56,925 nt of DNA, taken from positions 1 through 56,925 of IMG/VR virus record IMGVR_UViG_3300013137_000023, one strand, 5' to 3'. Source of the stretch: a virus. The position numbers were made by a program, and so were the translations under genes. Positions 326-56,925 of the stretch are shown piece by piece. The notes beneath the pieces were generated by a model. That model ran no database searches, was not told where the DNA came from, and saw only the letters and a program-made list of their open reading frames with translations. Within the stretch, counting starts at the first letter, position 1; each line of letters starts with the position of its first letter.

Positions 326-490
326 ATCAAGCATGGCCTTGCTGATTACTTGCCTTAGATAATTATTCCCTGTTTTGACCGGCTCTTCGTTATCCCTGAT
401 CCGATTAACCATCCAGACCGCCCGATTGATTTCAGTATGGGCATTAATAATAAATTGGTATCTTATTTCTCCCACGGCACTTCCTCCCAT
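284..490 (-). CDS. Hypothetical small protein of the recombination operon
   Basis: A 68-residue protein starting at the ATG at 490, chosen because it forms a TAATG overlap with the stop of the bet-like gene upstream. It has a predicted helical middle (residues 10-30) and a basic tail ending in KKKPWLK. No motif was recognised. Its place between the annealing protein and the MmcB-like gene, with overlaps at both ends, makes translational coupling and a role in DNA metabolism likely, but this is inference. Confidence 0.7.
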   Translation of the reverse strand: MGGSAVGEIRYQFIINAHTEINRAVWMVNRIRDNEEPVKTGNNYLRQVISKAMLDLSKAVGKKKPWLK

Positions 491-1347
491 TATTTCCCCT
501 CTATAGCCGGACACCCATCCCGGCTGGTGCAGATTTCCCGGCAGTATTCAAGATGTTTTTGCCCTCCATTGGGGCAGTCGATTAATTGCTCCGGTTTAGG
601 CGTCTCCGGGTCGGTGGTATCTTTGGCCGTCTTAGGGGTTGAACGTTGATCCTGGGGCTTGGGCGTGTTTCTAACCCATGCAATAAACCCTTCCCATGTC
701 GGGTTTGATTCTCCTGCGGTAAGATATTGCTTTAAACGCTCTCTGGCCTGGGGTTGTTTATCTTTAGGGAGCTTGGAGATTTCGGATTCAAAGGGTTGGT
801 TGTTTTGCTTGGCTTGTGTTTTTTCGGTTGGCTTAATTACTTCTCCCTCAAGCGGTATTTCATCTGCGGTGTATGGCAATCCCCCTATTTCCTCCGGGAA
901 AGCTGTCCTGAAAGCCTGTGCTATAGCAACCTTGCGAAGCATAGTTTTTGGTTTAGATTTCCACATAGAATTACCAAGATTATATTCCTCAGCCCACACC
1001 TTGATAGTTAAGGGTTTAGACCAATCCTTCCGGTAAACGGTACACCACGCTTGTTTACCGTCATCGGAAACATCTGCTTCCCATCCATCCAGTTTCCCCG
1101 ACCTCTCGGCCCGTTTCAAATACACCTCATAGCCGGTAATGATATTAAACCTGTCTCCGTAGGGAATAGCATAAACCTCCCGTTTAAAGGGATTCAGATT
1201 GTTAATATGGGCAACCTGATAAAACATGTTCTTTTGTTGTTCGGTTAATTTTGTTCCAGACGAAAACAGGTAGTTATCAATATCTTGTTTTGAAATTAAT
1301 AGTTGAACATCTGCCTTAACCATCTCATACTTTTCTTGCGTTTCCAT
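490..1347 (-). CDS. bet: Bet/RecT-type single-strand annealing recombinase
   Basis: A 285-residue protein. Residues about 40-185 fit the Bet/RecT superfamily: the stretch FYQVAHINNLNPFKREVYAI followed by an I-I-T-G-Y block is the family's most recognisable part. Such proteins bind single-stranded DNA and anneal complementary strands during phage recombination, working with an exonuclease, which is the next gene (1357-2022). The C-terminal 35 residues hold four cysteines that could bind zinc, an addition outside the annealing core. The ATG at 1347 is preceded by GGGAGGAATT. It is coupled downstream by a TAATG overlap. Confidence 0.88.
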   Translation of the reverse strand: METQEKYEMVKADVQLLISKQDIDNYLFSSGTKLTEQQKNMFYQVAHINNLNPFKREVYAIPYGDRFNIITGYEVYLKRAERSGKLDGWEADVSDDGKQAWCTVYRKDWSKPLTIKVWAEEYNLGNSMWKSKPKTMLRKVAIAQAFRTAFPEEIGGLPYTADEIPLEGEVIKPTEKTQAKQNNQPFESEISKLPKDKQPQARERLKQYLTAGESNPTWEGFIAWVRNTPKPQDQRSTPKTAKDTTDPETPKPEQLIDCPNGGQKHLEYCREICTSRDGCPAIEGK

Positions 1348-1356
1348 AATTCCTCC

Positions 1357-2022
1357 CTATACTCTTTGTTTTAGTTTTTTATCTAAATCGTATGCTTTTC
1401 TGAATAGTTTAAACTGCTCCCAAGCATCATCCAGTTCGCTCCAAAAGTGGTGTGCAAAGTCTGCGTGTTCTTTGGAAAACCTTAAAAGGTGAAAGCCCCC
1501 CGTTATTGGTTCAGAAGGATTGTTTTCCTCCCATAATTGTTTATAGGCTGATATTTGCAGTAGATAGTCGGGATAAATGGCGTTGCTTGTCTTAAAATCT
1601 AAAATACAAAGATCGCCCCTTGAATCAAACCCCAAGGCATCCGGGCAACCTCCAAACATAAATTCAGTGCTTACCATTTCCATTTCTTGGTAAACTATTT
1701 CAATTTTGTTATCTTCTTGCCAACGGACATAGTTTAAATACCCCTGTGAGGCTTGCGATACTATTTCTTGCGGTACGTCTGTAAGGTCTGGTAACGGCTT
1801 CCGGTATATGTGTGATTCAACCATACTGTGGGCCAATGTTCCCGCCTCAGCCGCTTCATCTCTCTTGTCATATAGGGAAGATATTTCCCCCCTTTCTGCC
1901 GCCTTGCCCTGCTCAAAGGCCCAATAAAGTAATCCACCAGAATCTTTAAAGCGGCCAATTATAGTTGTAACTCCGGGAACTGTTTTACCGTTTACTTTAT
2001 ACCCACCTTTCGGATGTGGCAT
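1357..2022 (-). CDS. PD-(D/E)XK exonuclease, partner of the annealing protein
   Basis: A 221-residue nuclease of the RecB/Cas4-like fold. Visible active-site residues are GTLAH (61-65), Asp128 in GGCPDALGF, Asp142-x-Lys144 in CILDFKT, and the QxxxY motif (Q156, Y160). Phage enzymes of this type resect double-stranded ends to give 3' tails for a Bet/RecT protein, here encoded immediately downstream. Together they form a Red-like two-gene recombination module. The length is normal for a single nuclease domain without helicase parts. Confidence 0.85.
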   Translation of the reverse strand: MPHPKGGYKVNGKTVPGVTTIIGRFKDSGGLLYWAFEQGKAAERGEISSLYDKRDEAAEAGTLAHSMVESHIYRKPLPDLTDVPQEIVSQASQGYLNYVRWQEDNKIEIVYQEMEMVSTEFMFGGCPDALGFDSRGDLCILDFKTSNAIYPDYLLQISAYKQLWEENNPSEPITGGFHLLRFSKEHADFAHHFWSELDDAWEQFKLFRKAYDLDKKLKQRV

Positions 2023-2223: not shown

Positions 2224-2293
2224 TTTCTCGTCCCCCTTTTCTGGCGCTTGGAGGCTCTTTGTATTTCCAGCCCATTTCTTTTTTTTTAGTCAT
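2216..2293 (-). CDS. Tiny basic ORF of 25 residues
   Basis: It starts at the ATG at 2293, preceded by GGGGGAAG, and overlaps the stop of the 83-residue gene upstream by 8 bases and the start of the 62-residue gene downstream. It begins with MTKKKEMGWKYKEPP and is rich in Lys. It fills a gap that would otherwise have no gene. It may be a true micro-gene or only a coupling peptide. Confidence 0.4.
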   Translation of the reverse strand: MTKKKEMGWKYKEPPSARKGGRENG

Positions 2294-2537
2294 CTTCCCC
2301 CCTCATCTCCTGGATACCCCACCGGATATACTCATCCATAGCGGAAGGGTTCTCGTTAAAATACCGTTCCATCCAGGCATATTTCCGGTTTTCGTCCTGA
2401 GTCAATTCAAACCTGGCGTCCTCACGAAACCAGGACTCATGAAGTTTGTCCACAATTCGGTCGCCAGTTGCCCTCGGCCTGACGATCATCCCGTTTCCAT
2501 GATGGGCCTTTAGCCCGTAGTCCTGTTGACGTTCCAT
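2286..2537 (-). CDS. Hypothetical 83-residue protein at the array boundary
   Basis: A protein rich in charged residues with predicted helices in the second half. The ATG at 2537 is preceded by AGAAGGAGGAACC. It is the first ordinary phage gene after the attC-like cassette array, whose truncated last site begins just upstream. The function is unknown. Confidence 0.65.
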   Translation of the reverse strand: MERQQDYGLKAHHGNGMIVRPRATGDRIVDKLHESWFREDARFELTQDENRKYAWMERYFNENPSAMDEYIRWGIQEMRGEDD

Positions 2538-2544
2538 GGTTCCT

Positions 2545-2604
2545 CCTTCTGTGTATCATGCGCTTTTTCGTGATACACGGTTTCCGCTCAATTACTTGTT
2601 ATGC
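2545..2604 (-). other. attC-like site 9, truncated
   Basis: One arm is intact: read on the minus strand it begins GCATAACAAG and continues to GAGCGG. The opposite arm is missing. In its place is an unrelated perfect hairpin of GTGTATCA and TGATACAC. The stop codon of the cassette gene 2599-2853 is the TAA of the GCATAAC core. This looks like the broken last site of the array, where cassette DNA meets phage DNA. Confidence 0.6.
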
Positions 2605-2853
2605 GTCTTGCGGAAGTATCGCCTCACACTCACGCCACAGCCTCGCAGGGTCGTGGTGCCGCGTGAAGTCCAGCAACACCTTCAAGGCCTCTCGGTCCAT
2701 ACCAAGCGAGTGAACTGGGTCGTGTTGCGACAGCAGCAAAGCGCAGCATTCCCGAGTCAGGGCCAGATCAAGCCTTGCTTCTACGTTTTCGCGCTCGGCC
2801 ATCCACCGCTTCACGGTGTCGTTGTTGCAGGGACATATACCAAATTCGTTCAT
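2599..2853 (-). CDS. Cassette gene 1, hypothetical 84-residue protein
   Basis: It starts with an ATG at 2853 behind AAGGAGGAAGAC, only 21 bases after the GTTAGGC core of site 8, and stops in the GCATAAC core of site 9. This is the tight core-RBS-gene-core arrangement of integron cassettes. It has two cysteine pairs (residues 8-10 and 36-37) and a helical body; no family was recognised. GC content is clearly higher than in flanking phage genes, suggesting another origin. Confidence 0.65.
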   Translation of the reverse strand: MNEFGICPCNNDTVKRWMAERENVEARLDLALTRECCALLLSQHDPVHSLGMDREALKVLLDFTRHHDPARLWRECEAILPQDA

Positions 2854-2874
2854 GTCTTCCTCCTTTCATCACAC

Positions 2875-2933
2875 GCCTAACCTGGCGTTGCAGCGGACCC
2901 GTGTGCCACGGCCCGCCGAACTTTTCGTTAGTA
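2875..2933 (+). other. attC-like site 8
   Basis: The outer cores are GCCTAAC (2875-2881) and GTTAGTA (2927-2933). Between them is an imperfect palindrome, with GTTGCAGCGGACC pairing with GGCCCGCCGAAC. The left arm has an extra unpaired base, as in the top strand of classical attC sites. Size is 59 bp. Confidence 0.75.
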
Positions 2934-3086
2934 TTAATAAATAACGGCGTAGTAAATTACATAAAACCATGAAAATATGCCGTGTAAAATAGCCCATAAA
3001 ATTGATTTATTAATGCTCCATGAAATAGTTACTGCTATCGCAGACCCTAAACCAATTCCAGAACTTGTTGCTGTTTCTTTATTCAT
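2934..3086 (-). CDS. Cassette gene 2, small membrane protein
   Basis: A 50-residue protein starting at the ATG at 3086 behind AAAGAAAGG. It has one clear hydrophobic stretch rich in Ile, Leu and Trp (residues about 13-48, probably two short membrane helices). Its stop codon directly precedes the core of site 8 and its start follows the core of site 7. Small membrane proteins with a Gly-rich start and the motif SxxxNKSILWAILHG are, from memory, common in integron cassettes of environmental bacteria. The function is unknown. Confidence 0.7.
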   Translation of the reverse strand: MNKETATSSGIGLGSAIAVTISWSINKSILWAILHGIFSWFYVIYYAVIY

Positions 3087-3113
3087 AATGATGAACCTTT
3101 CTTTAATTAAAAA

Positions 3114-3169
3114 TACTAACAAGGTCAATTCAGCGGACTCGTTCCTCACCGCTGATTTTTTCGTTGGCC
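3114..3169 (+). other. attC-like site 7
   Basis: The cores are TACTAAC (3114-3120) and GTTGGCC (3163-3169). The inner stem is TCAGCGG with CCGCTGA, and there is one extra base in the left arm. It is 56 bp. The C-terminus and stop codon of the minus-strand zinc protein lie inside it. Confidence 0.7.
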
Positions 3170-3339
3170 TTCACAATGTCGGGGTGGCATTCCGTGCAGT
3201 ACGCCTCACGACGAAACGGCGTGTAGCTCTGACCAGGTGTCCCGGCCCACTCCGACCACTCGTACCTCTCCCGCACCTTGTCGCACCCCGTGCATTTGCC
3301 ACGAGGAAGGCGAACAAGGCGATGGAGGACTACCTTCAT
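3130..3339 (-). CDS. Cassette gene 3, small zinc-binding protein
   Basis: The body carries CTGC and CTEC pairs about 33 residues apart, consistent with one zinc ribbon. No start codon lies in frame inside the cassette itself. The nearest ATG (3339) is within attC-like site 6, and a further one is at 3360. The last residues (from about KANEKI) are encoded by site 7. The reading frame therefore runs through both flanking recombination sites. The function is unknown. Confidence 0.55.
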   Translation of the reverse strand: MKVVLHRLVRLPRGKCTGCDKVRERYEWSEWAGTPGQSYTPFRREAYCTECHPDIVKANEKISGEERVR

Positions 3340-3387
3340 TCGCTCGCTTCGCTCACTCATTTCGGAGCCTCAACTTTCTCGTTATGT
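3309..3387 (+). other. attC-like site 6
   Basis: The right core is GTTATGT (3381-3387). The left core, GGCGAAC (3309-3315), departs from the RYYYAAC consensus. The arm segment GCCTCAACTTTCTC resembles that of site 4 (CCCCTCAACTTTGC). The middle holds a CGCTCGCTTCGCTCAC stretch. The 79-bp size is normal. It is the weakest of the complete sites. Confidence 0.55.
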
Positions 3388-3585
3388 GGAACTTTTGGCT
3401 AAATCACCAGCCATTATTTCTACTGTATAACCTTCTCTATTAGCAACTTGTAGAAATCCAAAATCAAACCTTGTTCCCTCAGTAAATCTATAATGGTCAG
3501 AGGCAGTTACTCGTAGTTCGTGTTCATATCCTGTTTTAGGGTCGCATTTAACCCATATTGCAATTATTTTTTTCATCTTTTCCAT
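3382..3585 (-). CDS. Cassette gene 4, hypothetical 67-residue protein
   Basis: The start chosen is the ATG at 3585, behind GGGAG and 23 bases inside the cassette. An upstream in-frame ATG lies at 3621. The stop TAA lies in the ACATAAC core of site 6. The protein alternates hydrophobic and polar residues and looks like a small beta-rich fold. No motif was recognised. Base composition is lower in GC than the neighbouring cassettes. Confidence 0.6.
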   Translation of the reverse strand: MEKMKKIIAIWVKCDPKTGYEHELRVTASDHYRFTEGTRFDFGFLQVANREGYTVEIMAGDLAKSST

Positions 3586-3607
3586 TTTAATCTCCCGCCA
3601 AAAGTCC

Positions 3608-3735
3608 ACATAACAAGCCAATCAAACCGACAAAAAATATCGGTGGTGCTGTTAAGGGTCTTGGCTATTTTTAATTTGTAAATCATTTAATTATTTCATT
3701 CTCATTTTTTGCGGTTTATCGGCAAAGCGTTAGGC
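3608..3735 (+). other. attC-like site 5
   Basis: The cores are ACATAAC (3608-3614) and GTTAGGC (3729-3735). At 128 bp this is the longest site, the size of Vibrio repeats. Arm segments AAGCCAATCAAACCG and CGGTTTATCGGC pair with small bulges. The C-terminal codons of the minus-strand gene 3702-3944 run into it. Confidence 0.65.
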
Positions 3736-3944
3736 GGCACATCGCCAGATGCTCCTGCGAGTATCCCGCCAGGTGCGTACATCGCCTCAAACTCTCCGTC
3801 CCACTGCACGAAAGAGCGCGTCCCGTCGTGCATCGCCCAAAGCTTGCCGCATCGCGTACAGCCGACTTTCCGCGCTCCGTGGTTCAACACTCGCTCAACA
3901 ATGTAGCGATGGCCGAATACTGCGCAAATCAACCGTTCGAGCAT
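3702..3944 (-). CDS. Cassette gene 5, DUF1660-like phage zinc protein
   Basis: An 80-residue protein with C7, H12, C29 and C32 as likely zinc ligands (FGHRY then CTRCGKLWAMHD) and a PWDGEFE-like end. This matches a family of small phage-encoded proteins known to me as DUF1660-like. The ATG at 3944 follows GAGGAGGG and the GTTAGGC core of site 4 by only 22 bases. GC content is much higher than in surrounding phage genes. A phage-type gene lying in a cassette suggests cassettes have moved between phages. Confidence 0.75.
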   Translation of the reverse strand: MLERLICAVFGHRYIVERVLNHGARKVGCTRCGKLWAMHDGTRSFVQWDGEFEAMYAPGGILAGASGDVPPNALPINRKK

Positions 3945-3959
3945 ATATCAACCCTCCTC

Positions 3960-4026
3960 GCCTAACCCGGCGTTCGAGCGGGACGCTTCGCCTATCGGCT
4001 TCGCGCCCCTCAACTTTGCGTTATGT
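3960..4026 (+). other. attC-like site 4
   Basis: The cores are GCCTAAC (3960-3966) and GTTATGT (4020-4026). In the palindrome GTTCGAGCGGGACGC pairs with GCGCCCCTCAAC, with an extra C in the left arm at the position expected for the classical extrahelical base. The 67-bp size is typical. Confidence 0.8.
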
Positions 4027-4043
4027 GTTGAAGGGAGACCGTC

Positions 4044-4238
4044 ATGTCACAATTTGGATTACCTTGTTTTTTAGAAAATTTAAGGCTTTTCGCAAACCCA
4101 CAGACAGAGCCAGAAAAATACAATCTTTACAATGGTCTTCGGAGTATGTCTGAGGGCCTTGCATCTTTAGTCCTAATCGTTGACAATATTCAGACGCAGT
4201 TAGATCAGATAAATAGAAAATTGGATCAGCTTTCATAA
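4044..4238 (+). CDS. Cassette gene 6, small coiled-coil protein
   Basis: A 64-residue protein. The C-terminal half (VDNIQTQLDQINRKLDQL) has heptad spacing of a coiled coil. It starts 18 bases after the GTTATGT core of site 4 behind AAGGGAGA, and stops 25 bases before site 3. This is the standard cassette layout in the + direction, and the only cassette gene with that orientation. A minus-strand frame over the same bases (4042-4236) has a perfect AGGAGG and is the alternative. Confidence 0.6.
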   Translation: MSQFGLPCFLENLRLFANPQTEPEKYNLYNGLRSMSEGLASLVLIVDNIQTQLDQINRKLDQLS

Positions 4239-4262
4239 TAACCTCCTATTAAAAATTAAATC

Positions 4263-4311
4263 ACATAACAACCGGCTCGACTTGACGAGCAAGTCAGCCG
4301 GGACGTTATGC
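4263..4311 (+). other. attC-like site 3
   Basis: The cores are ACATAAC (4263-4269) and GTTATGC (4305-4311), flanking an almost perfect hairpin. CCGGCT, one unpaired C, and GACTTG on the left pair with CAAGTC and AGCCGG on the right around a 5-base loop. It is 49 bp, shorter than most attC sites, and its structure is the cleanest of the set. Confidence 0.85.
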
Positions 4312-4612
4312 TCTTTGAATCTGGCTTGCAATGTAGGGTTGCAAGGTTGGGCAAATACCTTTCAGAGGAGGTGGTTAACTTGAAAAAGTTAATACACATT
4401 TTGAAGGGGGCGCGCTTCCGAGTTATTAATCATTTGTACCACCCTTGAACGTGTTAGGCTATCATTTTTGAGTTCAAGAGCCGCTTGATTAGACTTTGGA
4501 AGGCAGAAGGTAATAGTAATGTCTCTTTCTGCTTCGATAGTCGGGCAAAGGGAACACACATTACCGCGCCGCCCTTCTTTTCCATTCCTACATTGCAAGC
4601 CAGATTCAAAGA
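4312..4612. repeat. 301-bp element bounded by perfect 26-bp inverted repeats
   Basis: Bases 4312-4337 and 4587-4612 are perfect reverse complements (starting TCTTTGAATCTGG). The left repeat begins right after the core of site 3. I see no target-site duplication and no transposase. The element fills most of this cassette and looks like a MITE-like or snap-back sequence. Inside it, on +, GAGGAGGTGG is followed by a short frame of about 25 codons. Confidence 0.75.
4389..4598 (-). CDS. Cassette gene 7, doubtful 69-residue ORF
   Basis: It starts inside the right inverted repeat and covers most of the 301-bp element. It has a CSLC pair near residue 16 but no recognisable family, and there is no good ribosome binding site at the first start. 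It may not be expressed. Confidence 0.3.
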   Translation of the reverse strand: MQCRNGKEGRRGNVCSLCPTIEAERDITITFCLPKSNQAALELKNDSLTRSRVVQMINNSEARPLQNVY

Positions 4613-4663
4613 TCGTTTGTGGCTAATACCCACGAAAATATTATAAAAAAATAAAAGTTGATA

Positions 4664-4726
4664 GCATAACCACCGGCTCGACCTCGACCGCCAAAAGACG
4701 GCGGCAGGTCAGCCGGAGCGTTATGC
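4664..4726 (+). other. attC-like site 2
   Basis: The cores GCATAAC (4664-4670) and GTTATGC (4720-4726) are perfect complements. Arms CCGGCT, GACCT and CCGCC pair with GGCGG, AGGTC and AGCCGG, leaving an extra C on the left. It lies 14 bases after the stop of the methyltransferase gene. Confidence 0.85.
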
Positions 4727-4739
4727 GTAAATATCACCA

Positions 4740-5390
4740 TCACCTATTTGCCTCAAAGAACGCTTGTGCAAATCCAGGCGGTGTAATTGCCCTGCGTTCC
4801 TGCCTTGTGTATTTGCCGTAATATTCCGGGTATATGTCCTTGCTCTTGAGCATCGAAAACTTAACCATGCCAGACGGCTTCTCGGTTGTTTTCGGAAGGG
4901 GCTTGTTGAACTTACCCCACAGCGCCGTTGTCTTCTGGTAGTTGTCTCCATATTCCCACGGCTGGAAGATCATCGCTGGTTCTTTTAGCCACTTCTTGAG
5001 CAAGCTGTTTGCCGGATTCTCTATGGCCCAAAACTTCGGCTGTGCGGTCAGTATTATCCGGCAACATGCCGCAGCCACTTCAAGCCCTGCCTCGAAATCG
5101 TGCGTGTAGTTTCCCTTGCAATGGAAATATTTGGCTATGCTGAAATTATCGCAGGGCGTGGCGGCTAAAATGCCGTACACGTTATCAGGTGGTATGTAGA
5201 GCCTGACATCATCAGTAGGCAGAGTTACTATTCTCACATCATAGCCTGCTTCGACATAGGGGCGGCTCCATGAGCCCGTGCCTCCACAAAGATCAAGAAT
5301 GATACGATGCGCATAACAAGCGCATCGAGAGGGACGCGGTATCCCGCCGTCTTCTTTTTTCATTTCTGCCTTATTCACCGCGCCCCTCAT
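4740..5390 (-). CDS. Cassette gene 8, phage-type DNA cytosine-C5 methyltransferase-like protein
   Basis: Motifs of C5 methyltransferases are visible: SAM-binding LDLCGGTG (residues 32-39 of the longest frame), the catalytic Cys in TPCDNFS (79-84) and ENPANS (124-129). The protein is short for a full Dcm (about 190 residues in the core) and I see no clear target-recognition domain, as in the short phage homologues. The frame has no start inside the cassette; residues 1-28 are encoded by attC-like site 1. An ATG in the GTTATGC core would begin MRI but is two bases out of frame with ILDLCGG. So either translation starts in the site or the gene is frameshifted at its start. Confidence 0.75.
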   Translation of the reverse strand: MRGAVNKAEMKKEDGGIPRPSRCACYAHRIILDLCGGTGSWSRPYVEAGYDVRIVTLPTDDVRLYIPPDNVYGILAATPCDNFSIAKYFHCKGNYTHDFEAGLEVAAACCRIILTAQPKFWAIENPANSLLKKWLKEPAMIFQPWEYGDNYQKTTALWGKFNKPLPKTTEKPSGMVKFSMLKSKDIYPEYYGKYTRQERRAITPPGFAQAFFEANR

Positions 5391-5404
5391 GCTTGTCGTT
5401 ATTT
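5311..5404 (+). other. attC-like site 1, first of the array in operon order
   Basis: The cores are GCATAAC (5311-5317) and GTTATTT (5398-5404). The left arm AAGCGCATCGAGAGGGACGC closely follows the Vibrio cholerae repeat pattern, including an extra C and A relative to the right arm. It is 94 bp. The TAA stop of the upstream phage gene 5399-5776 lies in the outer core, so the array starts exactly at the end of a phage gene. Confidence 0.8.
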
Positions 5405-5776
5405 CCCCCTGTTCGGTTCATTAGGATCAATTGTTTGTTTATAAGACCACATAATAAAATCAAGAATTGTTTCTGATAAACTTCCCCCGGTAATATTGAT
5501 CCAGTCTGCAACTAATTCGTCCAAGCATTTATGTAATTCAATGTGCCTGATTTTATGCTCTGATTTACTCATATTCCTGTAGTCCTTTTGTGTTCCCATC
5601 AATTTCTTCCTTTCAGTATTATACATATCGAACGCTTTTGGGTTGCCGTAGTAATTCCCGCTTTCATCAAGAAACAAAAGGTTCCGTTTTCTAAATGTGC
5701 CTTTGCAATTATGAGGGCCAATACCGCCCAAGTTTCTTCCACACCATAGGCATTTATAGGGCTTGTTATTCATCAT
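5399..5776 (-). CDS. Conserved phage protein with zinc-type N-terminus
   Basis: A 125-residue protein. CLWC and a later C/H (residues 9-23) suggest a small zinc site. The C-terminal part (HKCLDELVADWI ... FIMWSYKQT) matches a small helical module I have seen in many phage proteins that lack a known function. It starts 3 bases inside the end of the upstream winged-helix gene. Its stop codon TAA is part of attC-like site 1. Confidence 0.65.
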   Translation of the reverse strand: MMNNKPYKCLWCGRNLGGIGPHNCKGTFRKRNLLFLDESGNYYGNPKAFDMYNTERKKLMGTQKDYRNMSKSEHKIRHIELHKCLDELVADWINITGGSLSETILDFIMWSYKQTIDPNEPNRGK

Positions 5777-17455: not shown

Positions 17456-20400
17456 CTAATCTGCGAATGCTTCTTGAATTTCCATATATTCTGGTCTTGC
17501 TATCCTCGGTAGCCGTTTTAGGTCGGCAACTTCGGGAGCAATCATTTTTAATAAATGATCTTGTATCCCCTTTTTATTGGGAATAATCATATCATCAAGA
17601 TCGGCTTTTTCGTTGTGTTTTGTTATCCAGGCCATAGCCTTGTCAAGTTTCTTGTCTCCCCGTTCTTCTTTGCCCTGGGTCATATCAAAAATAGCTGAAG
17701 CTATCAACCAATTGGCTTTTTTATTATATTTAGTAGCACGTTCAGTAAGTAATATTCTGGCATTTTCTTTTTCGTAAGCACGGGACATAGTAGATGGCTG
17801 TAAACCAAGACCCTTCATAAATATATCCCATGAATCAACGTCTGCTATTGGTTTATTGGCCGGGGTTCTGGATCCTTCCAGCGCCCATCTTCCGGCAACA
17901 GTTAGATTCCTAACAGCTTCAGGGGCGAGTGCTTCTGCTGCCCGTTGCGGATTATCATAATCTCTATACATATTATATGCACGTCCAACTCTTAAAGGTA
18001 TATCCCCGGCAACACCAGTTATCATTCGCCCGACTGCCGGATAGACACCCTTTTCAATGTCAGAAGTCATTTCTTGTATACCGAGAGAACCGGAAATGTC
18101 CCATCCAGCAAGATAAGGAACTCCGTGTAATATTGTGTCAGTAATATTTTTTGGTAACGCCTTTTTCATTTCAGTTTTGGGGTCATATCCCGATATTTCA
18201 GCTGCTTTAATCAGGTCTTTAATTAGAGGAAAACCGCTAATACCGGCTAATCCAAACATGGTTGCCAACATTCTTGACCATACAGGGAAACCACCATTCT
18301 TCATAAAATACTTTTTTAAGAGAGATAGATAGTTTCCCATAAAAGTTCTAAATATCATAATAGAGGAACCAACACGGCCACGGGCTATCTCTGGTCTGTT
18401 GGCCTTAGTATAATCGAATTGTGTTTCCTTCACTATTTGTTCTGCTTGTTTAATGGCTTCTGCATGAGACAAACCTTTTGCAATAGAAACATTATAACCG
18501 GCTATCATAGATACAAATCTATTGAATTTTTCGGCCTTGTCAAACATGAAAGAGGATATGTTGGTAGCTCCTGGGTCTGTAAGTCCCATTCCCGGTCTTG
18601 CTCTGCCACTTAATTCACGATACACTTGTGCAGATAAACTCCCCTCACTTATACCCTTATTAAGAGCATCCATTAAATCGGGGTATTTTGCCGAAAACTT
18701 TTTAGATGAAGCCATATACTCCATCATTTGCTTCATGGCTTTCGCATAAGCTATTTCTGGCGTTTTGGTATGTGCCGCAAGGACCGGATATGTAGTAATA
18801 ATGGTCTGCGTCAAGTTGACAAGAGCCGATTTTACGTTTAACCCCAAGTAATAGTGAAACATGAAGTTGCGCAAGGCATAGGCTTCTGGCTTAGAAGTCG
18901 TTACATAGTCTATATACCGCTTGGCATATCCATAGACACCGGAGTCACGCTTTTGGTCAATGGCATCAAACATCTGAGAATAATCAACTTCGGCCTTTTT
19001 GTTTGACACAAAATTTGTTATCCCAATAATATAATCAGCAAGGTTACGGTCGAGATTAACGCTGTACCCAGGAGTGAGTGCGGCATGAAGCATGTGTTCC
19101 GGGAAACCGGAGGCATATCTTCCGAACATTTTTTTCATGTGTTCGGCTAAAACTGGATCGGCAGTATTCAGAGAATTAATGGCTACCATCAGGTCAATAG
19201 GAATATTTTCATACGCTTCCGGGGCAGATTTCAATACCTCTCCATACTTTACTTTCCATCCTTGTTTTCTAAAGTCTGCCCGGAGTTTATTGGCCTCTAT
19301 CTGGCTGTCAGTCATAGCATACGATTTTACCTTGTCCTCAGCATCAAGACCAATAACCCATTTACTCCCAAACCTGGAAAACGGAACATAATTGGCATCC
19401 TTTAGGTCGGTAATAAACTCATCAACCTTTTGTATATATCGGTCCTGGGAGGAAAGGCCGTCTTTCCCTGGGGTTGTACTGTAATAATCTGCTTTGGCTA
19501 TTAATCCCTCTCTTAAATAGTCCAAAGAATTATTGGCAAAGTCTTTTATGGCTTGAACGGCATCAATTTCCGATTGATTAAATCCAAGTTTTTGAGCTTC
19601 AGCAATAGTATCGAACTTACCCCCCCTGACACGGGCCGCAAAAAGAAAAGACTTTACTTTGTCCTTAGAGGCTTCCGGTAATCCAATATATGGTTGGATT
19701 TGTTGTGCAAACTCATAGGTTTTTGAATCACGTTCAATAAATTTTTGGTCTGTTCTTTCCTTTATCGGGCCAAACTTATCAGGGAACTTCTGTTTAATGG
19801 TTTCGGGAAAGGCAAAGAAAGACTTAATAGACCGTTCTCCCGGCATAATTCTATTAGCAAAATAAGTAACTTCTTTGGGTGTGTCTATCTTCTCTGTTTT
19901 TTCATGCTGTCTTCCAGACCTGAAGTTATCTATGGTTTGTTTCAGGCCGTCTATGTATTGTTGTGCGCCGCCAAGACCGAAGCCAAGTGTTACCCCTTCT
20001 GTTCCTTCCTGTTTTGTAATGCCGTCAAATAGTCCCTTGTCTCTCTCAGGACTACTTTTTTGCTTTCCGGTGATAATTTCTGATACATCTTCCCTGATTT
20101 TGTCGTAAGCCCATTGTTTTGCTTTTCCTGGGTTTTCTCCATTTCCTATCCTCCTTGCCGCTTCGTTAAGCGTTTCAGAAATTGGACCAAGATAATTCTT
20201 GTTTCGATCAAAAACATCAAGAATAACACCAGCTTCCTTAGAAATTCCAAGGCTTTCTTCTGTCTTTATAACATTACCAACACTTTCAAGTCTATTGGCG
20301 TTTCTACCAACAACCCCGAACAATTTTTTATCTTTTGATAAATTATTTCTTATATAGGCCGCTACTTCAGCTTTTTCTAATGCCAAAGATTCTGTTTTTG

Positions 20401-23083
20401 TTTCATCTCCGAATAAAGACGACTGTGTCTCGTCCTTACTTGGGGCATTTAATATGTCATCTGCTAATTCAGATATAATATCGTTGGTAACTTTTTTGCC
20501 ATTAGATTCATACTTATTAAGTAACTTAATTAAGGCATCTTGCATATCCGGGTTGGTTATTTTACTGCCAATTAGCACGGCCCTTTTTTCTGGAATATCC
20601 CCCCGTAAGGCAGAATTGAAAATCCAATCATTAAGAGAAGAAAGGGCAAGACCGTCTCGGACAACCGACTCTTTCGTTGGTATTCCGCTTTGCAGTAAAT
20701 CATCGACAGATAATTTTGAATCCCTAAAGAACTTGGCCGCATCAAAAGCCGTGCCTCGTCCTTCTGCAATGTTTTGCATGGCGGCAATTGCCCTTGCTTC
20801 TTGCTGTGTGTCGGCTTTAATAAATTTAACGGGAATCGTATCTTGTCCTAACTCAATGGCCTTCATTACTCTATTGTGACCATTAGCAACAACTATTTCT
20901 CCCGTTTCAGGGTTTTGCCATACAGAAACAATTCCTTCTAAATTTTTATTCCATTTAGTTACACCTTCCAGTGATCCTGTTTGCCCTCCCTTACCATGAA
21001 GTATTTTATATTGCATGTTTTCAGGGTCAAGTTTTAGGACGCTAACAGGGAAATCTTCTTTTATGCCAGACATGGCCGCAGATTTCCCTATCTCTCCCGG
21101 CGGGGTGGAGCGGTTAGGGATTATTTCATCGTACTGCTGCGCCCTGGCTAATTCGTCGGGAGAGGGTGATTCTTTCAAAATATTTGGCTTAATGATTCTT
21201 ATTTCATCTTCAAATGGAAACTCAACCGCATCAAAGCCTTTCTCCCTTGCATAATCAATTATCTTTTGTTGTTTATTCCAGACCTTTTTTTGTAAGCTCT
21301 CAAAGACTTTGTCGCTTCCCGAAATAGGAAAATTAGATAATTTTTTAGCGTCTTCTAAATAACTCCCTTGTAATTCAACCGGAATATCTGATTCTTTAAG
21401 GACTTTTGCGGTTGACGGAAGAATGGCCTCACTAATTATTTTATTTTCTTCGCCAATAAAGTTTTCTGCTATTTCCTTTGATGTAGAAACTGAAATACCT
21501 CTTGATCCACCCCTTGAAAAATCTATCGGTTCGTCTCCTCCCCGATAGACTTTCATTCCCGAAATACTTCCTCTTTCCTCTATATTATTTCCCGGCCCCT
21601 GATACTCCACGTTCTTCATCTGTGATGGGTCTTTAACCATACCCCACTTAGTGGGCTTGCCCTGATAATCCGTTCCCTCAACGATTATGCCGTCATATAG
21701 ATTAGTTCCCTGAGCAACGTCTTTATTCCATGCGTCCATATCTGGTGCGGGGCGTTTTATCTCTGGTTCAAATTTATAAACATGCTCCCCAAAAGCCTCG
21801 GTCATGGGACGGTCTGAGAAGTTCACCTTCTGCCCCGGCTTCCATTCGGTAACTGGTGCGTCGGTGGCGTGGTAGAAAAATTGCCCTTCGCCTTGTGTTG
21901 AGGTATCTATTAATTCAGGTTCCGTTACTGTTTCTGGTTTTATGATATTCTCAACTGGTGAAACTTGTTCTTGAGCAATATTTTTTTGTTCTATTTGCTG
22001 TTCTGGAATGTTTTCAGTCGTGCCAATATCTTTGTTTGTCGGTTGATTAAGCAATCCAAGGATGTCATTTTCTTCTATATTAACAGTTCCTTCGTCAGCT
22101 TGTTGTTTAGCAATATCTTTCTCAATCGCCTCCTTGTTTCCAATCTTACCAAGAAGATCATTGACAAAATTGCTTATCTTTTGTTCTTGTATGGCTTGTT
22201 GTTTTAATCCCCTATGTTTTGCTATTGGGTGAGCAATAGCGCCCATAGCAGGACCGGCTAAGGCAGTAATGGCCGCCGTATCAAGAACGGTTTGCTTAAA
22301 CTCCTTCCATCCCAACTTGGGATTGATATAATTCTTATCAACTAAAAACTGCAAAGTAGAAGTAACTTCTTCTCCTAATATGTCTTTAAAAGTAACATCA
22401 ATGGCACGCTTAATTAGTTTTGACCCCAGCTTAAATAATGCTTTTGCGGGAGGGGCTTCACCAATTCCTTCGGCCATACCTTTAACAAAAGACCCCGCCA
22501 TTTTTTCGTGTGGCTTTAGTTCGGGATTATCTTTCTCCATTTCCCTATAGGATTGTCCTGCTGTTTGTAGCATGGCAGAACCAATAACACCGGCAGGCCC
22601 AAGGGCTAACCAGGGGGCTATCTGTGCCACACTTGACCCTGCCCCATAGACTATTCCCTTTGCCGATCCTGGCTCAACGTTTGGTTCAACAATATATCTC
22701 TCACCGGCCTCGGCTATTTTTTGACCAACCCGTCTTTTTGCTAATTCACGTCCCAACTTTGCTTGACTTCCAATACCTTCTTGGTAAGACTGAACCAACC
22801 CGCCAATGGCTTGAACGGCACGGGGAACTACATTCCCTATCGTTGCCGCATAAATATCGTACCAACCAGATTCTTTTGGCTTCTCCATAAGGCCAAGTTC
22901 CATAGCCGTAGCTTTCATGGCTTCAATCTTCTGCTTGTTTGGTAACTTCTTTAATTCGGAGTCTGTCTGGAAGGCCATACCTATATCTTGCCACGTTGCA
23001 GGACGTTCTACCACAAACCTATTAGTATCGGTGGTTTGTTCTTGTGGTGTTATTTCTTGTGCCTCTTCAATAACAAAAGCCAT
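17456..23083 (-). CDS. Giant internal virion (polyvalent) protein with ART-like and ParB-like domains
   Basis: About 1875 residues, with the start at 23083 in a TAATG overlap. The N-terminal 300 residues have hydrophobic Gly/Ala-rich segments. At about 404 comes FYHATDAP with FSDRP, then at about 513 VYRGG with GISVSTSKEIAENF, both like ADP-ribosyltransferase folds. Residues about 680-790 are ParB/sulfiredoxin-like (NGHNRVMKAIELGQDTIPVKF). After about 1070 there is a long helical region resembling large polyvalent phage proteins. Such proteins are packaged and injected with the DNA. Three possible activities in one chain (two transferases, one nuclease or NTPase) suggest protection of incoming DNA. 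The catalytic residues need checking. Confidence 0.7.
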   Translation of the reverse strand: MAFVIEEAQEITPQEQTTDTNRFVVERPATWQDIGMAFQTDSELKKLPNKQKIEAMKATAMELGLMEKPKESGWYDIYAATIGNVVPRAVQAIGGLVQSYQEGIGSQAKLGRELAKRRVGQKIAEAGERYIVEPNVEPGSAKGIVYGAGSSVAQIAPWLALGPAGVIGSAMLQTAGQSYREMEKDNPELKPHEKMAGSFVKGMAEGIGEAPPAKALFKLGSKLIKRAIDVTFKDILGEEVTSTLQFLVDKNYINPKLGWKEFKQTVLDTAAITALAGPAMGAIAHPIAKHRGLKQQAIQEQKISNFVNDLLGKIGNKEAIEKDIAKQQADEGTVNIEENDILGLLNQPTNKDIGTTENIPEQQIEQKNIAQEQVSPVENIIKPETVTEPELIDTSTQGEGQFFYHATDAPVTEWKPGQKVNFSDRPMTEAFGEHVYKFEPEIKRPAPDMDAWNKDVAQGTNLYDGIIVEGTDYQGKPTKWGMVKDPSQMKNVEYQGPGNNIEERGSISGMKVYRGGDEPIDFSRGGSRGISVSTSKEIAENFIGEENKIISEAILPSTAKVLKESDIPVELQGSYLEDAKKLSNFPISGSDKVFESLQKKVWNKQQKIIDYAREKGFDAVEFPFEDEIRIIKPNILKESPSPDELARAQQYDEIIPNRSTPPGEIGKSAAMSGIKEDFPVSVLKLDPENMQYKILHGKGGQTGSLEGVTKWNKNLEGIVSVWQNPETGEIVVANGHNRVMKAIELGQDTIPVKFIKADTQQEARAIAAMQNIAEGRGTAFDAAKFFRDSKLSVDDLLQSGIPTKESVVRDGLALSSLNDWIFNSALRGDIPEKRAVLIGSKITNPDMQDALIKLLNKYESNGKKVTNDIISELADDILNAPSKDETQSSLFGDETKTESLALEKAEVAAYIRNNLSKDKKLFGVVGRNANRLESVGNVIKTEESLGISKEAGVILDVFDRNKNYLGPISETLNEAARRIGNGENPGKAKQWAYDKIREDVSEIITGKQKSSPERDKGLFDGITKQEGTEGVTLGFGLGGAQQYIDGLKQTIDNFRSGRQHEKTEKIDTPKEVTYFANRIMPGERSIKSFFAFPETIKQKFPDKFGPIKERTDQKFIERDSKTYEFAQQIQPYIGLPEASKDKVKSFLFAARVRGGKFDTIAEAQKLGFNQSEIDAVQAIKDFANNSLDYLREGLIAKADYYSTTPGKDGLSSQDRYIQKVDEFITDLKDANYVPFSRFGSKWVIGLDAEDKVKSYAMTDSQIEANKLRADFRKQGWKVKYGEVLKSAPEAYENIPIDLMVAINSLNTADPVLAEHMKKMFGRYASGFPEHMLHAALTPGYSVNLDRNLADYIIGITNFVSNKKAEVDYSQMFDAIDQKRDSGVYGYAKRYIDYVTTSKPEAYALRNFMFHYYLGLNVKSALVNLTQTIITTYPVLAAHTKTPEIAYAKAMKQMMEYMASSKKFSAKYPDLMDALNKGISEGSLSAQVYRELSGRARPGMGLTDPGATNISSFMFDKAEKFNRFVSMIAGYNVSIAKGLSHAEAIKQAEQIVKETQFDYTKANRPEIARGRVGSSIMIFRTFMGNYLSLLKKYFMKNGGFPVWSRMLATMFGLAGISGFPLIKDLIKAAEISGYDPKTEMKKALPKNITDTILHGVPYLAGWDISGSLGIQEMTSDIEKGVYPAVGRMITGVAGDIPLRVGRAYNMYRDYDNPQRAAEALAPEAVRNLTVAGRWALEGSRTPANKPIADVDSWDIFMKGLGLQPSTMSRAYEKENARILLTERATKYNKKANWLIASAIFDMTQGKEERGDKKLDKAMAWITKHNEKADLDDMIIPNKKGIQDHLLKMIAPEVADLKRLPRIARPEYMEIQEAFAD

Positions 23084-24315
23084 TAATATATTTCTCTCCA
23101 CTCACTACCATTACTAATATACTTTTTCCCCGTAACCGTATCTGTCATTGTTTTACCAGTAAACAAACTCGCCTTTGGCTTAGTTGTAAATGTCTGTTTT
23201 ATTGTTTTTGGTTGAGTGGCTTGTGTTTTCTGACTTGGTTGGTTAGCGGAAGAACCAGATGTGCCACCATTTTTTTGTTGCATCCTCTGAGAAGCCCTTT
23301 CAAGTGAGGCATTAATTATTTTATCTATCGGATTTTCTTGTTTTGCAACGGCATACGGAGTCCATCCGGTTTCAATATATGTTTCGTATGAATTATCGTT
23401 TTTATCAATAACCTTCCTTGATTTACCGTCTGGACTTGTTAGGATGACTTTGTTTGGTTTATATTGTGGCCCACCACCGCCACCCTCGGTAGGCTTCCAT
23501 GCCGGTTTAGGCTTCCCAACCGGGATGTCATTAGATTGTGTTTCTGGATTCCATTTATAGGTTTGTATTAATCTTCCGTTACCTATGGGAATATCTTCAT
23601 ACATTCTTGGTGTAGGTTCTTTTGGTTTGGTAGGTAAGCCAGACTTAAATTTCTCCTCGGCTATCTTATTAGCGGACTCAATGTTTTTCAACTCAATGGC
23701 CTGTTTATGCTTCCGTTCCTCAAGGGCTAATGCTTTGCTTGCCTTAATCTGTTCATTGGCCTCGGCCCTTTTCATCTTAAAATGTTCCATCATAAGGGTA
23801 GCAACAAGGTTAGGTGGTGCATCTGGGTACTTCTGCGTCAAGGCGGCGGCATCAAAAGAGTTGTTCAGCTTTGATGCTTCTTTGTCCCATTCGGAAAGCT
23901 GACGTAGCTTTTCCTGGTTCGATACTTCAACGGTCGGGGCCACACCCATTTCAGCGCCAGGATCAAACTGCCCCGTTTCATCCGTTCCATAACCCGGTTC
24001 AACCCTTGTAACGGTAGAGGGCATGTTTTCAATAATCCCCCGTTTCTGAGCAAGGGCCGCTTGCTGTTGCATATTATTGATGTATTCGCCCACCATCCTG
24101 GCATATTGCTGTTGCCCGAGTTCTTCACGGCGTTGCTTTTCCCGTGCTTCCCTCATTTGTCTCCCCATTTGCCAGAATTGCATAGCACGGGTAGGAGCCT
24201 CCGGGTCTTTGGAAACAACTGCCGGTAAAGCAAGGGCAAGCATATCCATCCAATCAATGTCATTCTTAACCCCACCCTGAGTAAGATTTTTAGCTATTTC
24301 TTCTTTGAAAGCCAT
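23083..24315 (-). CDS. Internal virion protein, coiled-coil rich
   Basis: A 410-residue protein. The N-terminal 90 residues and residues about 150-230 are strongly helical and charged (MREAREKQRREELGQQQYAR; KALALEERKHKQAIELKNIE); the C-terminal part is Gly/Lys/Thr-rich and ends in a small domain (VTGKKYISNGSEWREIY). Position before the giant gene, with overlap, suggests it is packaged with it, like the internal proteins of podoviruses. No family was recognised. Confidence 0.6.
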   Translation of the reverse strand: MAFKEEIAKNLTQGGVKNDIDWMDMLALALPAVVSKDPEAPTRAMQFWQMGRQMREAREKQRREELGQQQYARMVGEYINNMQQQAALAQKRGIIENMPSTVTRVEPGYGTDETGQFDPGAEMGVAPTVEVSNQEKLRQLSEWDKEASKLNNSFDAAALTQKYPDAPPNLVATLMMEHFKMKRAEANEQIKASKALALEERKHKQAIELKNIESANKIAEEKFKSGLPTKPKEPTPRMYEDIPIGNGRLIQTYKWNPETQSNDIPVGKPKPAWKPTEGGGGGPQYKPNKVILTSPDGKSRKVIDKNDNSYETYIETGWTPYAVAKQENPIDKIINASLERASQRMQQKNGGTSGSSANQPSQKTQATQPKTIKQTFTTKPKASLFTGKTMTDTVTGKKYISNGSEWREIY

Positions 24316-33006: not shown

Positions 33007-33891
33007 CTATTTTGTTCTGTTCCCAACAACCAAATCAACCACAAGGTTTACTATATCAAGACCATGATGATCATTGACATATACTAAATATGAATCAGAA
33101 TCATATCTGCCTTCAGTCTTTCCGATAGCTTCTTTAATCGTCTCAAAAACAAGCTCATTCGGATACATCTTGTTCGCACCGGGCCAGCTATGAATAATGG
33201 GCTTAATTCCCTTAGCCATAGCTTCAAGGACAAACATGGGGTCTCCTTCGCTCGTACTGGTGCATAGGCAATAATTCTTATCTTCCCACCATTGATCTAA
33301 TTGATTATTTGGGATTCTATTATACATAAACAACCGGCCCTTTAGGTTTAAATTAGCCAAATAAGCCTCTATCCACAAATCATTAGACTCTCCGGCAATG
33401 TGAAGATCGTATTCTTTGGGAAGGGCCATTAATATCTGTACGGCTAACGGTATGTTTTTTACTGAGTGTATCCGCCCAACCATTCCTATTTTCTTGCCAT
33501 GAGACCTTTCCTTGAATGTCCACTTGTTGGCATCTATGGGGTTTGGAATAAAATGAACCCTTGTCGGCTTATCTCCTATTCCCTTTTCAACCTGGTCGGC
33601 AATCCACGGATTACAACAGATAATATCCGATATTTTGTTCCATTTATGATTAATCCAGTCAGCATGAAAGAACTCAAACCGCCTCATCATTAAAACATGA
33701 CGTGCATAGGGGAACAACCCGGTAAAGTCCCTGTCGGCCCATGTAGACCAAACAACGTCCGGCCTGGGAACATTTCTTAACTCATCCCTTCCGTTCCAAA
33801 CTGTAACGCTATGTCCAAGCTCCTTAACCCTGTTGACATAAAGCGGCAACCAGGTTTTACCCCATGGATAATCAATAATCAGGACATTCAT
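33007..33891 (-). CDS. GT4-like glycosyltransferase
   Basis: About 294 residues with the start at 33891 (ATGA overlap). The second half carries IPNPID, GMVGRIHSVKNIPLAVQI and EGDPMFVLEAMAKG, the donor-binding and E-x7-E-like features of GT-B retaining enzymes (GT4). The N-terminal acceptor domain is short. It probably transfers a nucleotide sugar to a surface or virion glycan. Confidence 0.75.
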   Translation of the reverse strand: MNVLIIDYPWGKTWLPLYVNRVKELGHSVTVWNGRDELRNVPRPDVVWSTWADRDFTGLFPYARHVLMMRRFEFFHADWINHKWNKISDIICCNPWIADQVEKGIGDKPTRVHFIPNPIDANKWTFKERSHGKKIGMVGRIHSVKNIPLAVQILMALPKEYDLHIAGESNDLWIEAYLANLNLKGRLFMYNRIPNNQLDQWWEDKNYCLCTSTSEGDPMFVLEAMAKGIKPIIHSWPGANKMYPNELVFETIKEAIGKTEGRYDSDSYLVYVNDHHGLDIVNLVVDLVVGNRTK

Positions 33892-34874
33892 ATAATATTG
33901 CACTCCCTGCACATAAACATTTCTTTACCCCGACCTTCACGATGGGCGTAATAATATTCCCTGTATTTTTTACTTGATAAGATAATAGATAGCGGTTTTT
34001 CCATTATGTTCCCGAAAACAACCTCAGAATTAAAATCAGAACAACAAAGAATCATTTCCCCACGATAGTTAAACACCAATTTATTAAGGAAATTATGGCA
34101 TTGGCCGTTTTTGGCCCTGTGTTTTGGTTCGTAATTGACCTTCCCTCCCCTATTATAAAACGTAGGAAGCAGGGCCGGTAAACCAAAATGGGTCATTTTA
34201 GGGAAGGATATGTCTCCGGCCTTTGTTATGTCTTTAAGGTGATCGTCATAGTGATTAAAGTGAATAGAGTCCAGCCCTGTCTTAAAAAGTGCTTCAACAA
34301 CATCAAGGCGCATATTGGCCCCATTGGTTACTATCCTAACATAATTATTAGGCAATAAAGACTTAGTCATTTTCAGTAAAGTAACAATGCGGCTGTCAAG
34401 CATCGGTTCACCGTTAAGAAACGGGTGAATATCACCAGTATATCCGAAGTCTACTAATTGCCTTATAATGCGTGCATATACTTCCATAGGCATCAATCTG
34501 TCGGGTGATGTTTCTCTGTCTTTATTCGGACACCAGTCACACTTGCGATTGCAATAGTCTATGGTTTCAATGTTTATCGACTTGATGTTGCGTAATAGTC
34601 CTATGCGTTCTGCACGTCTGGAAAGGTCTGTTTCGTAATCTTCATTAACCGGCCAAAACTCTTCAAACCTACCGTTTGGACTTAATTCTTTCAGCCTGTC
34701 GTTCATTCGCTTTCCAGACCAATAGGCTTCGGCTACCAGATTAAGCCCGTTCTCAAGGACTTCACGGTCAGAGATATGCTTTTCCATCAGGTCATAAATT
34801 TCCCTATGGACTTCACAGATATAGCGCCTCGGAGATGAACCAACCAGTAATTCGTCTGTTGTTTCTTCTCTCAT
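33888..34874 (-). CDS. Radical SAM enzyme with SPASM-like cysteines
   Basis: A 328-residue protein. CNRKCDWC (Cys108, Cys112, Cys115) binds the 4Fe-4S cluster of radical SAM enzymes, followed by FLNGEPML, the GGE-like block. C-terminal cysteines (CHNF ... CCSDF ... CRECN) match a SPASM or twitch domain. SPASM proteins modify peptides or carry out sugar chemistry. Here it lies between glycosyltransferases and a methyltransferase, so it may modify a sugar or peptide of the same pathway. Radical SAM enzymes are rare in phages. Confidence 0.8.
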   Translation of the reverse strand: MREETTDELLVGSSPRRYICEVHREIYDLMEKHISDREVLENGLNLVAEAYWSGKRMNDRLKELSPNGRFEEFWPVNEDYETDLSRRAERIGLLRNIKSINIETIDYCNRKCDWCPNKDRETSPDRLMPMEVYARIIRQLVDFGYTGDIHPFLNGEPMLDSRIVTLLKMTKSLLPNNYVRIVTNGANMRLDVVEALFKTGLDSIHFNHYDDHLKDITKAGDISFPKMTHFGLPALLPTFYNRGGKVNYEPKHRAKNGQCHNFLNKLVFNYRGEMILCCSDFNSEVVFGNIMEKPLSIILSSKKYREYYYAHREGRGKEMFMCRECNII

Positions 34875-56356: not shown

Positions 56357-56896
56357 TCAACCTTTTTCCCCAAGTGGGGAATATGGTTGTTTTTTCTCCA
56401 TTCCCCCATTAATTCTTGCCCTCCATAGTTGTTTTTTTAAAGTCCAAATCCGCATCGCCCCCAGCCGTAACAGGGCCAGTCGTTGAGCATCAGACCACTG
56501 ATAGCTATGATTAATTTTTGGATTGCGGACGCATTGCACCGTAGTATCGGACAACTCATTCCCGACCACCAATATCCCCGCATGCCCTGGGATGAGGTCG
56601 GCGCTGCATTGCAGATAGTCTGGGATGGCAAAATACAGCCTGGATATTTTCCCATCTTTCCTGGGGTTGTCCGGGTCATAACTTCTATGGCCGTGACGCT
56701 TTTGGAGATCCTTTTTAAGATCCGCCCTGCTGATCTTTAACTCAACCTCATAGGCATAATTATTTTTAGTCAACACCAAGAGGTCGATTTCATACAGATT
56801 CAGCCCCCACGACACATTGGGAACGGCAAGGTTCACCCGAGGATTGAAATACTGGGCGACGGCGATCTCCATTTCCAGGGTCGTTATTTTAGCCAC
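56357..56896 (-). CDS. MmcB-like DNA repair family protein
   Basis: A 179-residue protein, complete here. GLNLYEIDLLVLTKNNYAYE then VELKISRADLKKDL has the Asp ... Glu-x-Lys pattern of PD-(D/E)XK-like folds; residues 70-120 are typical of the MmcB family (HGHRSYDPDNP). MmcB acts in DNA damage response; the phage copy may repair or protect DNA. Start at a GTG at 56896, 13 bases inside the previous gene across the junction. The C-terminus is Trp- and Arg-rich. It is followed by RusA. Confidence 0.6.
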   Translation of the reverse strand: MAKITTLEMEIAVAQYFNPRVNLAVPNVSWGLNLYEIDLLVLTKNNYAYEVELKISRADLKKDLQKRHGHRSYDPDNPRKDGKISRLYFAIPDYLQCSADLIPGHAGILVVGNELSDTTVQCVRNPKINHSYQWSDAQRLALLRLGAMRIWTLKKQLWRARINGGMEKKQPYSPLGEKG

Positions 56897-56925
56897 GGCT
56901 TCTTCTTTCCCACCGCCTTACTTAA
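56601..56925. repeat. Right copy of the diverged terminal overlap
   Basis: Matches 1-325 with 12 substitutions and no indels. Of the 12 changes, nine fall on third codon positions of the MmcB-like gene and only two change an amino acid, so they look like natural variation under selection rather than sequencing error. Confidence 0.9.

Follow-up and report, generated by a model that had tools for sequence, protein, structure and literature searches.

Reverse-polarity integron cassettes in the early operon of a tailed phage

Integrons are generally treated as bacterial gene-capture devices. We analysed the virus record IMGVR_UViG_3300013137_000023 of IMG/VR, whose entire length of 56,925 bases is called the window here, and in which an earlier note had pointed to a row of attC-like sites. 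Our reading, to which we give a probability of roughly three in four, is that eight integron-type cassettes stand in a row here, with no integrase, inside the early operon of a tailed phage, that the array belongs to a recurrent class of phage arrays with reverse polarity, and that an integron integrase of the host (IntI) would act on it in trans. The array (2598-5404) comprises eight complete attC sites and one half site and lies between the minus-strand genes p83 and p125; the top strand of its attC sites is the plus strand, and the cassette genes and the phage operon run on the minus strand. Beyond this single array we lean, with some reserve, towards the proposal that phages as a group keep a reverse-polarity cassette pool of their own, mobilized by host IntI, expressed only in phage operons and held apart from bacterial integrons.

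An array in a phage is not new in itself. The earlier note knew of no described array of this size in a tailed phage, but Qi et al. 2023 had already surveyed 10,705 phage genomes and reported 17 integrase-less attC clusters (CALINs), some of them in virulent phages and some with methylase cassettes, and had found five of six tested phage attC sites to be active with IntI1 (PMC9892861). The window array is like these in its lack of an integrase, its tailed-phage setting and its methylase cargo, and differs from them in having eight complete sites. What we did not find described, in the open papers searched, is the inverted polarity of genes against attC: the main text of Qi et al. discusses only same or divergent directions and does not report an antisense polarity of gene and attC (PMC9892861).

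Identity of the attC sites and cassette boundaries

Sites were sought with a covariance model, R1, built from 20 attC sites, none of them from the window; 17 were taken from bacterial genomes, in arrays next to IntI, and three from class 1 integrons on plasmids. R1 recovered seven of the eight complete sites, all on the plus strand and six of them at E<0.1 (best 1.6e-11); its best match outside the array in the 57-kb record had E=0.63. The earlier note had expected eight or nine hits from a search of this kind; of the complete sites, s3 was missed, and s6 reached only E=0.95. A CALIN is defined by at least two neighbouring attC sites that such a model recognizes, and the array has seven, all on one strand.

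The complete sites measure 49-128 bp, and the description of eight complete and one truncated site holds, supported by R1 and by the boundary rule given below as indicated for each site. Both support s1 (2875..2933; 24.9 bits, E=6e-4), s2 (3114..3169; 17.3 bits, E=0.046) and s4 (3608..3735; 16.0 bits, E=0.094). The highest score belongs to s5 (3960..4026; 56 bits, E=1.6e-11), which travels with cassette c5 and whose homologue in viral contig L110 is again located upstream of c5, and s7 (4664..4726; 25.4 bits, E=5e-4) and the right-border site s8 (5311..5404; 25.6 bits, E=4e-4) are also clear matches. Site s6 (4263..4311; 11.9 bits) is identified by its hairpin and the boundary rule, and the degenerate s3 (3309..3387), with its 5' core R'' mutated to GGCGAAC, satisfies the boundary rule at 5/6. 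The left border is a half attC on the plus strand (2598..2604), adjoining the start of p83, of which only L'-R' is left (CCGCTCAATTACTTG^TTATGC); its core, GTTATGC, starts at 2598. An opposite orientation of this half site was considered and rejected, as CCGCTCAATT...GTTATGC fits L'-R' on the plus strand like the other sites.

The strongest non-chance test of attC identity is the pairing of cores across cassette boundaries. The GTT+6 that opens a cassette pairs with the RYYYAAC core that closes the same cassette at 42 of 48 bases, compared with only 23 of 48 when cores are paired within single sites. Permutation of the cores reached 42 in 2 of 40320 orderings, and a random GTT/AAC pair scores at least 5/6 with p=0.0066. 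This pairing indicates that the units have been cut and joined at G^TT, so that the array has, as CALINs do, cassettes that are bounded at G^TT and whose two end cores are complementary. The sites are attC on three counts: their sequence, their structure and the pairing at the cassette boundaries. Two simpler site finders were discarded: a strict RYYYAAC/GTTRRRY expression missed nearly all real sites because most cores are GCATAAC-like, and plain scoring of DNA folds gave 88 candidates over the window with no discrimination.

No match to PF00589, the family searched for tyrosine recombinases and integrases, was found anywhere in the record. The array is thus not a complete integron, the record being without a tyrosine recombinase (attI was not searched for), and it lacks a nearby integron integrase as a CALIN does. 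Together with the attC model, the core pairing and the gene families, this upholds the earlier description of an integrase-less cassette array within a phage recombination operon.

Polarity of cassette genes against attC

Nearly all cassette genes in the window are antisense to the attC top strand, a feature on which the earlier note was silent. Strong ribosome-binding sites precede three cassette genes, all on the minus strand, and mismatches between c5 of the window and its relatives are mainly third-position changes in the codons of the minus frame (22/35 with L110, 19/32 with L112 and 19/37 with L111); together these place the cassette genes antisense to their attC, and therefore an attC at the 5' end of each gene. 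The array shares attC structure, G^TT boundaries and small single-gene cassettes of mixed GC with sedentary chromosomal integrons and bacterial CALINs, and the strong GC differences among its cassettes reported earlier were confirmed (0.33 to 0.60). In those bacterial arrays, however, attC stands at the 3' end of a sense gene, a usual though not absolute mark of CALINs that is absent from the window, whereas phage arrays have the reverse arrangement and no intI.

The orientation of an attC can be read from its asymmetric arms, and R1 is strand-specific: all 88 of its matches in bacterial IntI loci lie opposite to intI, that is, on the array top strand. The c5 protein led us to viral contigs L110-L112, in which attC sites again run opposite to the genes. 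Scanning IMG/VR for the pattern of one attC half-site turned up 55 loci, and an R1 search of these plus L110-L112 gave 198 matches. Polarity was called mechanically from the longest open reading frame (ORF) of each cassette, after removal of duplicates and with L157, L121 and L146 left out; IntI-bearing arrays, from bacteria and two temperate phages, served as the control set. Viral cassettes were sense in 15 cases and antisense in 88, compared with 62 sense and 9 antisense in the controls. Counted by array, the viral set comprised 1 sense, 28 antisense and 2 ties, and the control set 20, 0 and 1 tie (p=7e-13). ORFs started by a Shine-Dalgarno sequence gave 4 sense against 61 antisense in viral arrays and 35 against 8 in controls, and the raw viral tally, with L157, L121, L146 and the duplicates kept, was 24 sense against 101 antisense. 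All seven bacterial arrays retrieved by the same DNA pattern were sense. The window-type polarity is also shown by MW202573, a circular phage genome used by Qi et al., in which four strong attC matches (five including one at E=0.22) are all on the minus strand and the genes at these sites, annotated by others, are on the plus strand. Inverted polarity is thus general in viral arrays, and the polarity of genes against attC offers a simple test for separating phage-derived from bacterial arrays in metagenomes.

Several observations weigh against our interpretation. Sites s3 and s6 are weak. The viral set was drawn with a single attC subtype pattern, and its arrays are not fully independent; two of the contigs left out of the polarity count have integrase sequences (an intI of its own in L121, a contig with tail genes, and an intI fragment in L146), and the third, L157, comes from an isolate genome and is sense. 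No close relative with an empty site or with a different cassette number was found; such a comparison had been proposed in the earlier note as a check. Relatives identified through the exonuclease and p125 (L001-L013) differ in gene order and gave no attC matches, a scan based on RecT returned nothing, relatives of the terminase amounted to two fragments that are 100% identical and stop short of the array, and a search from the right border gave no further contigs of the same phage.

Exchange between phages and the source of the cassettes

Units exactly one cassette long are common to different phages. Cassette c5 of the window and its L110 counterpart share 83% identity over a stretch of 299 bases and differ beyond it; the homology opens one base ahead of one G^TT (-1), closes three bases past the following one (+3), and takes in the attC at the 5' end of the gene but not that at its 3' end, which fixes the assignment of attC to gene. 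These breakpoints support a crossover at G^TT, and other pairs of viral arrays likewise break within a few bases of it. The cargo of other viral arrays includes C5 and N6/N4 methylases, Mom, a PAPS-reductase/QueC-like enzyme and a radical SAM protein, a set that may reflect defence against host restriction. The genes adjoining viral arrays speak for their phage nature and encode a RecE-type exonuclease, DnaB, a T7-type helicase and polymerase, and terminase; the last was present in 14 of 24 tested array-bearing viral records. An integron integrase above the cut-off was found in none of the 24 viral records searched, 22 of them array-bearing.

Such exchange might not require an integrase at all if the sites merely descend from attC and are no longer recombined site-specifically, persisting instead as hairpins for RNA processing or spacing, or as short homologies for gene swaps by RecT and exonuclease. 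The lack of a phage integrase would fit this explanation, as would the position of the arrays in the window, L110 and L117, all of which adjoin phage annealing-protein or exonuclease genes. The ends of shared blocks, however, are frequently at positions -1, +2 or +3 relative to G^TT and not scattered through the site, the pairing of cores across cassettes has been kept as expected for crossover at G^TT, and the activity of other phage attC sites with IntI1 (PMC9892861) also argues against decay. We regard this explanation as unlikely.

The earlier note had suggested that phages pick up cassettes from a host integron and act as a shuttle. Under this explanation a segment or cassettes of a host chromosomal integron would have been captured by the phage, with free passage between phage and host. 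The window sites do resemble beta- and gammaproteobacterial chromosomal attCs (L094, L097 and L100), and such a segment is carried by Vibrio phage Va_90-11-286_p16 (PMC9892861), with seven of nine genes there in sense orientation. This phage and Shewanella phage M16-3, both temperate, resemble the window in having attC arrays in a phage genome; unlike it, they carry intI and mostly sense genes and are direct captures of host integrons. The inverted polarity of the window and of most viral arrays (28 of 31, against 0 of 21 controls) disfavours the shuttle because cassettes from a host would land antisense to the phage operon. Moreover, c5 and the c8 methylase both have relatives that reside in phage operons of the ordinary kind, and where c5 recurs in another phage its breakpoints lie at G^TT. 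The proposed comparison with integron collections gave no support either: the cassette proteins of the window had no match among 80 IntI loci, and c5 was found neither in the phage and plasmid records searched nor in ten integron-bearing genomes. A host-integron shuttle therefore seems quite improbable to us.

We also considered that bacterial integron DNA had been joined to phage DNA during assembly. GC changes sharply at the borders of the array, as such a chimera would predict, but one minus-strand phage operon continues on both flanks, genes of the array have phage relatives, and the same inverted layout recurs in about 30 unrelated viral contigs and in the published genome MW202573. We rejected this explanation, the chance of which we judge to be negligible.

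For a phage array of reverse polarity mobilized from outside, the presence of attC sites without an integrase in a phage operon makes recombination by host IntI in trans plausible. During infection the integron integrase of the host would excise and insert units at G^TT, acting through the folded bottom strand, which here is the gene-coding strand. A ribosome-binding site immediately behind the core would come with each unit, and an inserted unit would be transcribed by read-through from the phage operon. In Vibrio, excision is raised when the bottom strand of attC lies on the template for the lagging strand (PMC11023631). We hypothesize that, where the replication forks of a phage move in the direction of its genes, inverted polarity puts the bottom strand on this template. 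The benefit could be the exchange from phage to phage of small anti-restriction and takeover genes, with selection for anti-restriction genes that can be exchanged.

A cassette of a standard integron would be antisense, and so silent, in a phage operon, and the reverse would hold for a phage cassette in an integron; it is this mutual silence that would keep the two pools apart. If this proposal is correct, a second cassette economy owned by phages explains the precise swapping of small early genes (methylases, Mom and modification enzymes), and the SOS response and IntI activity of the host become linked to phage evolution. Phage arrays could then not simply feed host integrons, contrary to earlier proposals.

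Cassette genes and the phage genome around them

The c1 gene (2599..2853, minus strand, as are the genes that follow unless stated) encodes 84 aa, has a GGAGG Shine-Dalgarno sequence and has its stop codon within a GCATAAC core. It is followed by c2 (2934..3086), a small ORF resembling a membrane protein, and c3 (3130..3360), an ORF with CxxC motifs that is open across the left boundary. The c4 ORF (3382..3621) probably starts at an internal ATG and stops in an ACATAAC core. The c5 gene (3702..3944) encodes a zinc-ribbon-like protein of 80 aa, 87-92% identical to proteins of viral contigs L110-L112. The strand of c6 (4042..4236; 64 aa, with an AGGAGG Shine-Dalgarno sequence) is less sure, as a plus-strand ORF overlaps it at 4044-4238. 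Cassette c7 (4306..4720) has no convincing gene; a perfect 25-bp inverted repeat lies near its two ends (4313-4337 and 4587-4611), and c7 may be a cassette without a coding function or a small element that has been inserted. The last gene, c8 (4740..5390), encodes a C5 DNA methyltransferase (PHROG 757, E=1.3e-32) that shares 76% identity with a methylase of L106, encoded in an ordinary phage operon that has no attC. It has lost its own start at the cassette boundary, and its frame continues into s8, the loop of which contains in-frame ATGs.

The early (recombination) operon flanking the array includes, on the left, p83 (2286..2537), an exonuclease (1357..2022; PHROG 298, E=6e-25; viral relatives 62-73% identical) and a RecT-type annealing protein (490..1347; PF03837, E=3e-32), all on the minus strand. 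On the right lies the minus-strand gene p125 (5399..5776), for which relatives are known from viral contigs L006-L013; the gene ends, with its stop codon, in GTTATTT, the R' core of s8. A large terminase and a portal/connector protein, besides RecT and the exonuclease, mark the record as that of a tailed phage. Its two ends (1-325 and 56601-56925) differ by 12 mismatches in 325 bases, which suggests that the genome is almost complete and that its assembly spans strain variation.

Elsewhere in the record, a group I intron lies on the minus strand between phage genes (37520-37817; Rfam RF00028, 71 bits), and a protein of 1881 aa (17456-23101) matches portal-fusion and DarB-like antirestriction families. 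Among the phage structural genes is one for a radical SAM protein (33888-34874); the cassette cargo of L110 also includes such a protein.

Two further viral sequences carry integrase genes of their own. In L121 (681-8177) tail genes, an Mtd-like protein and a bAvd-like gene, reminiscent of a diversity-generating retroelement, adjoin an integron whose intI is 58% identical to IntI1. The virus Rctr41k (L022:4680-5678), from an anaerobic methane-oxidizing enrichment, has a gene for an IntI-like integrase with 45% identity to IntI1, which sits just upstream of methyltransferase-like genes.

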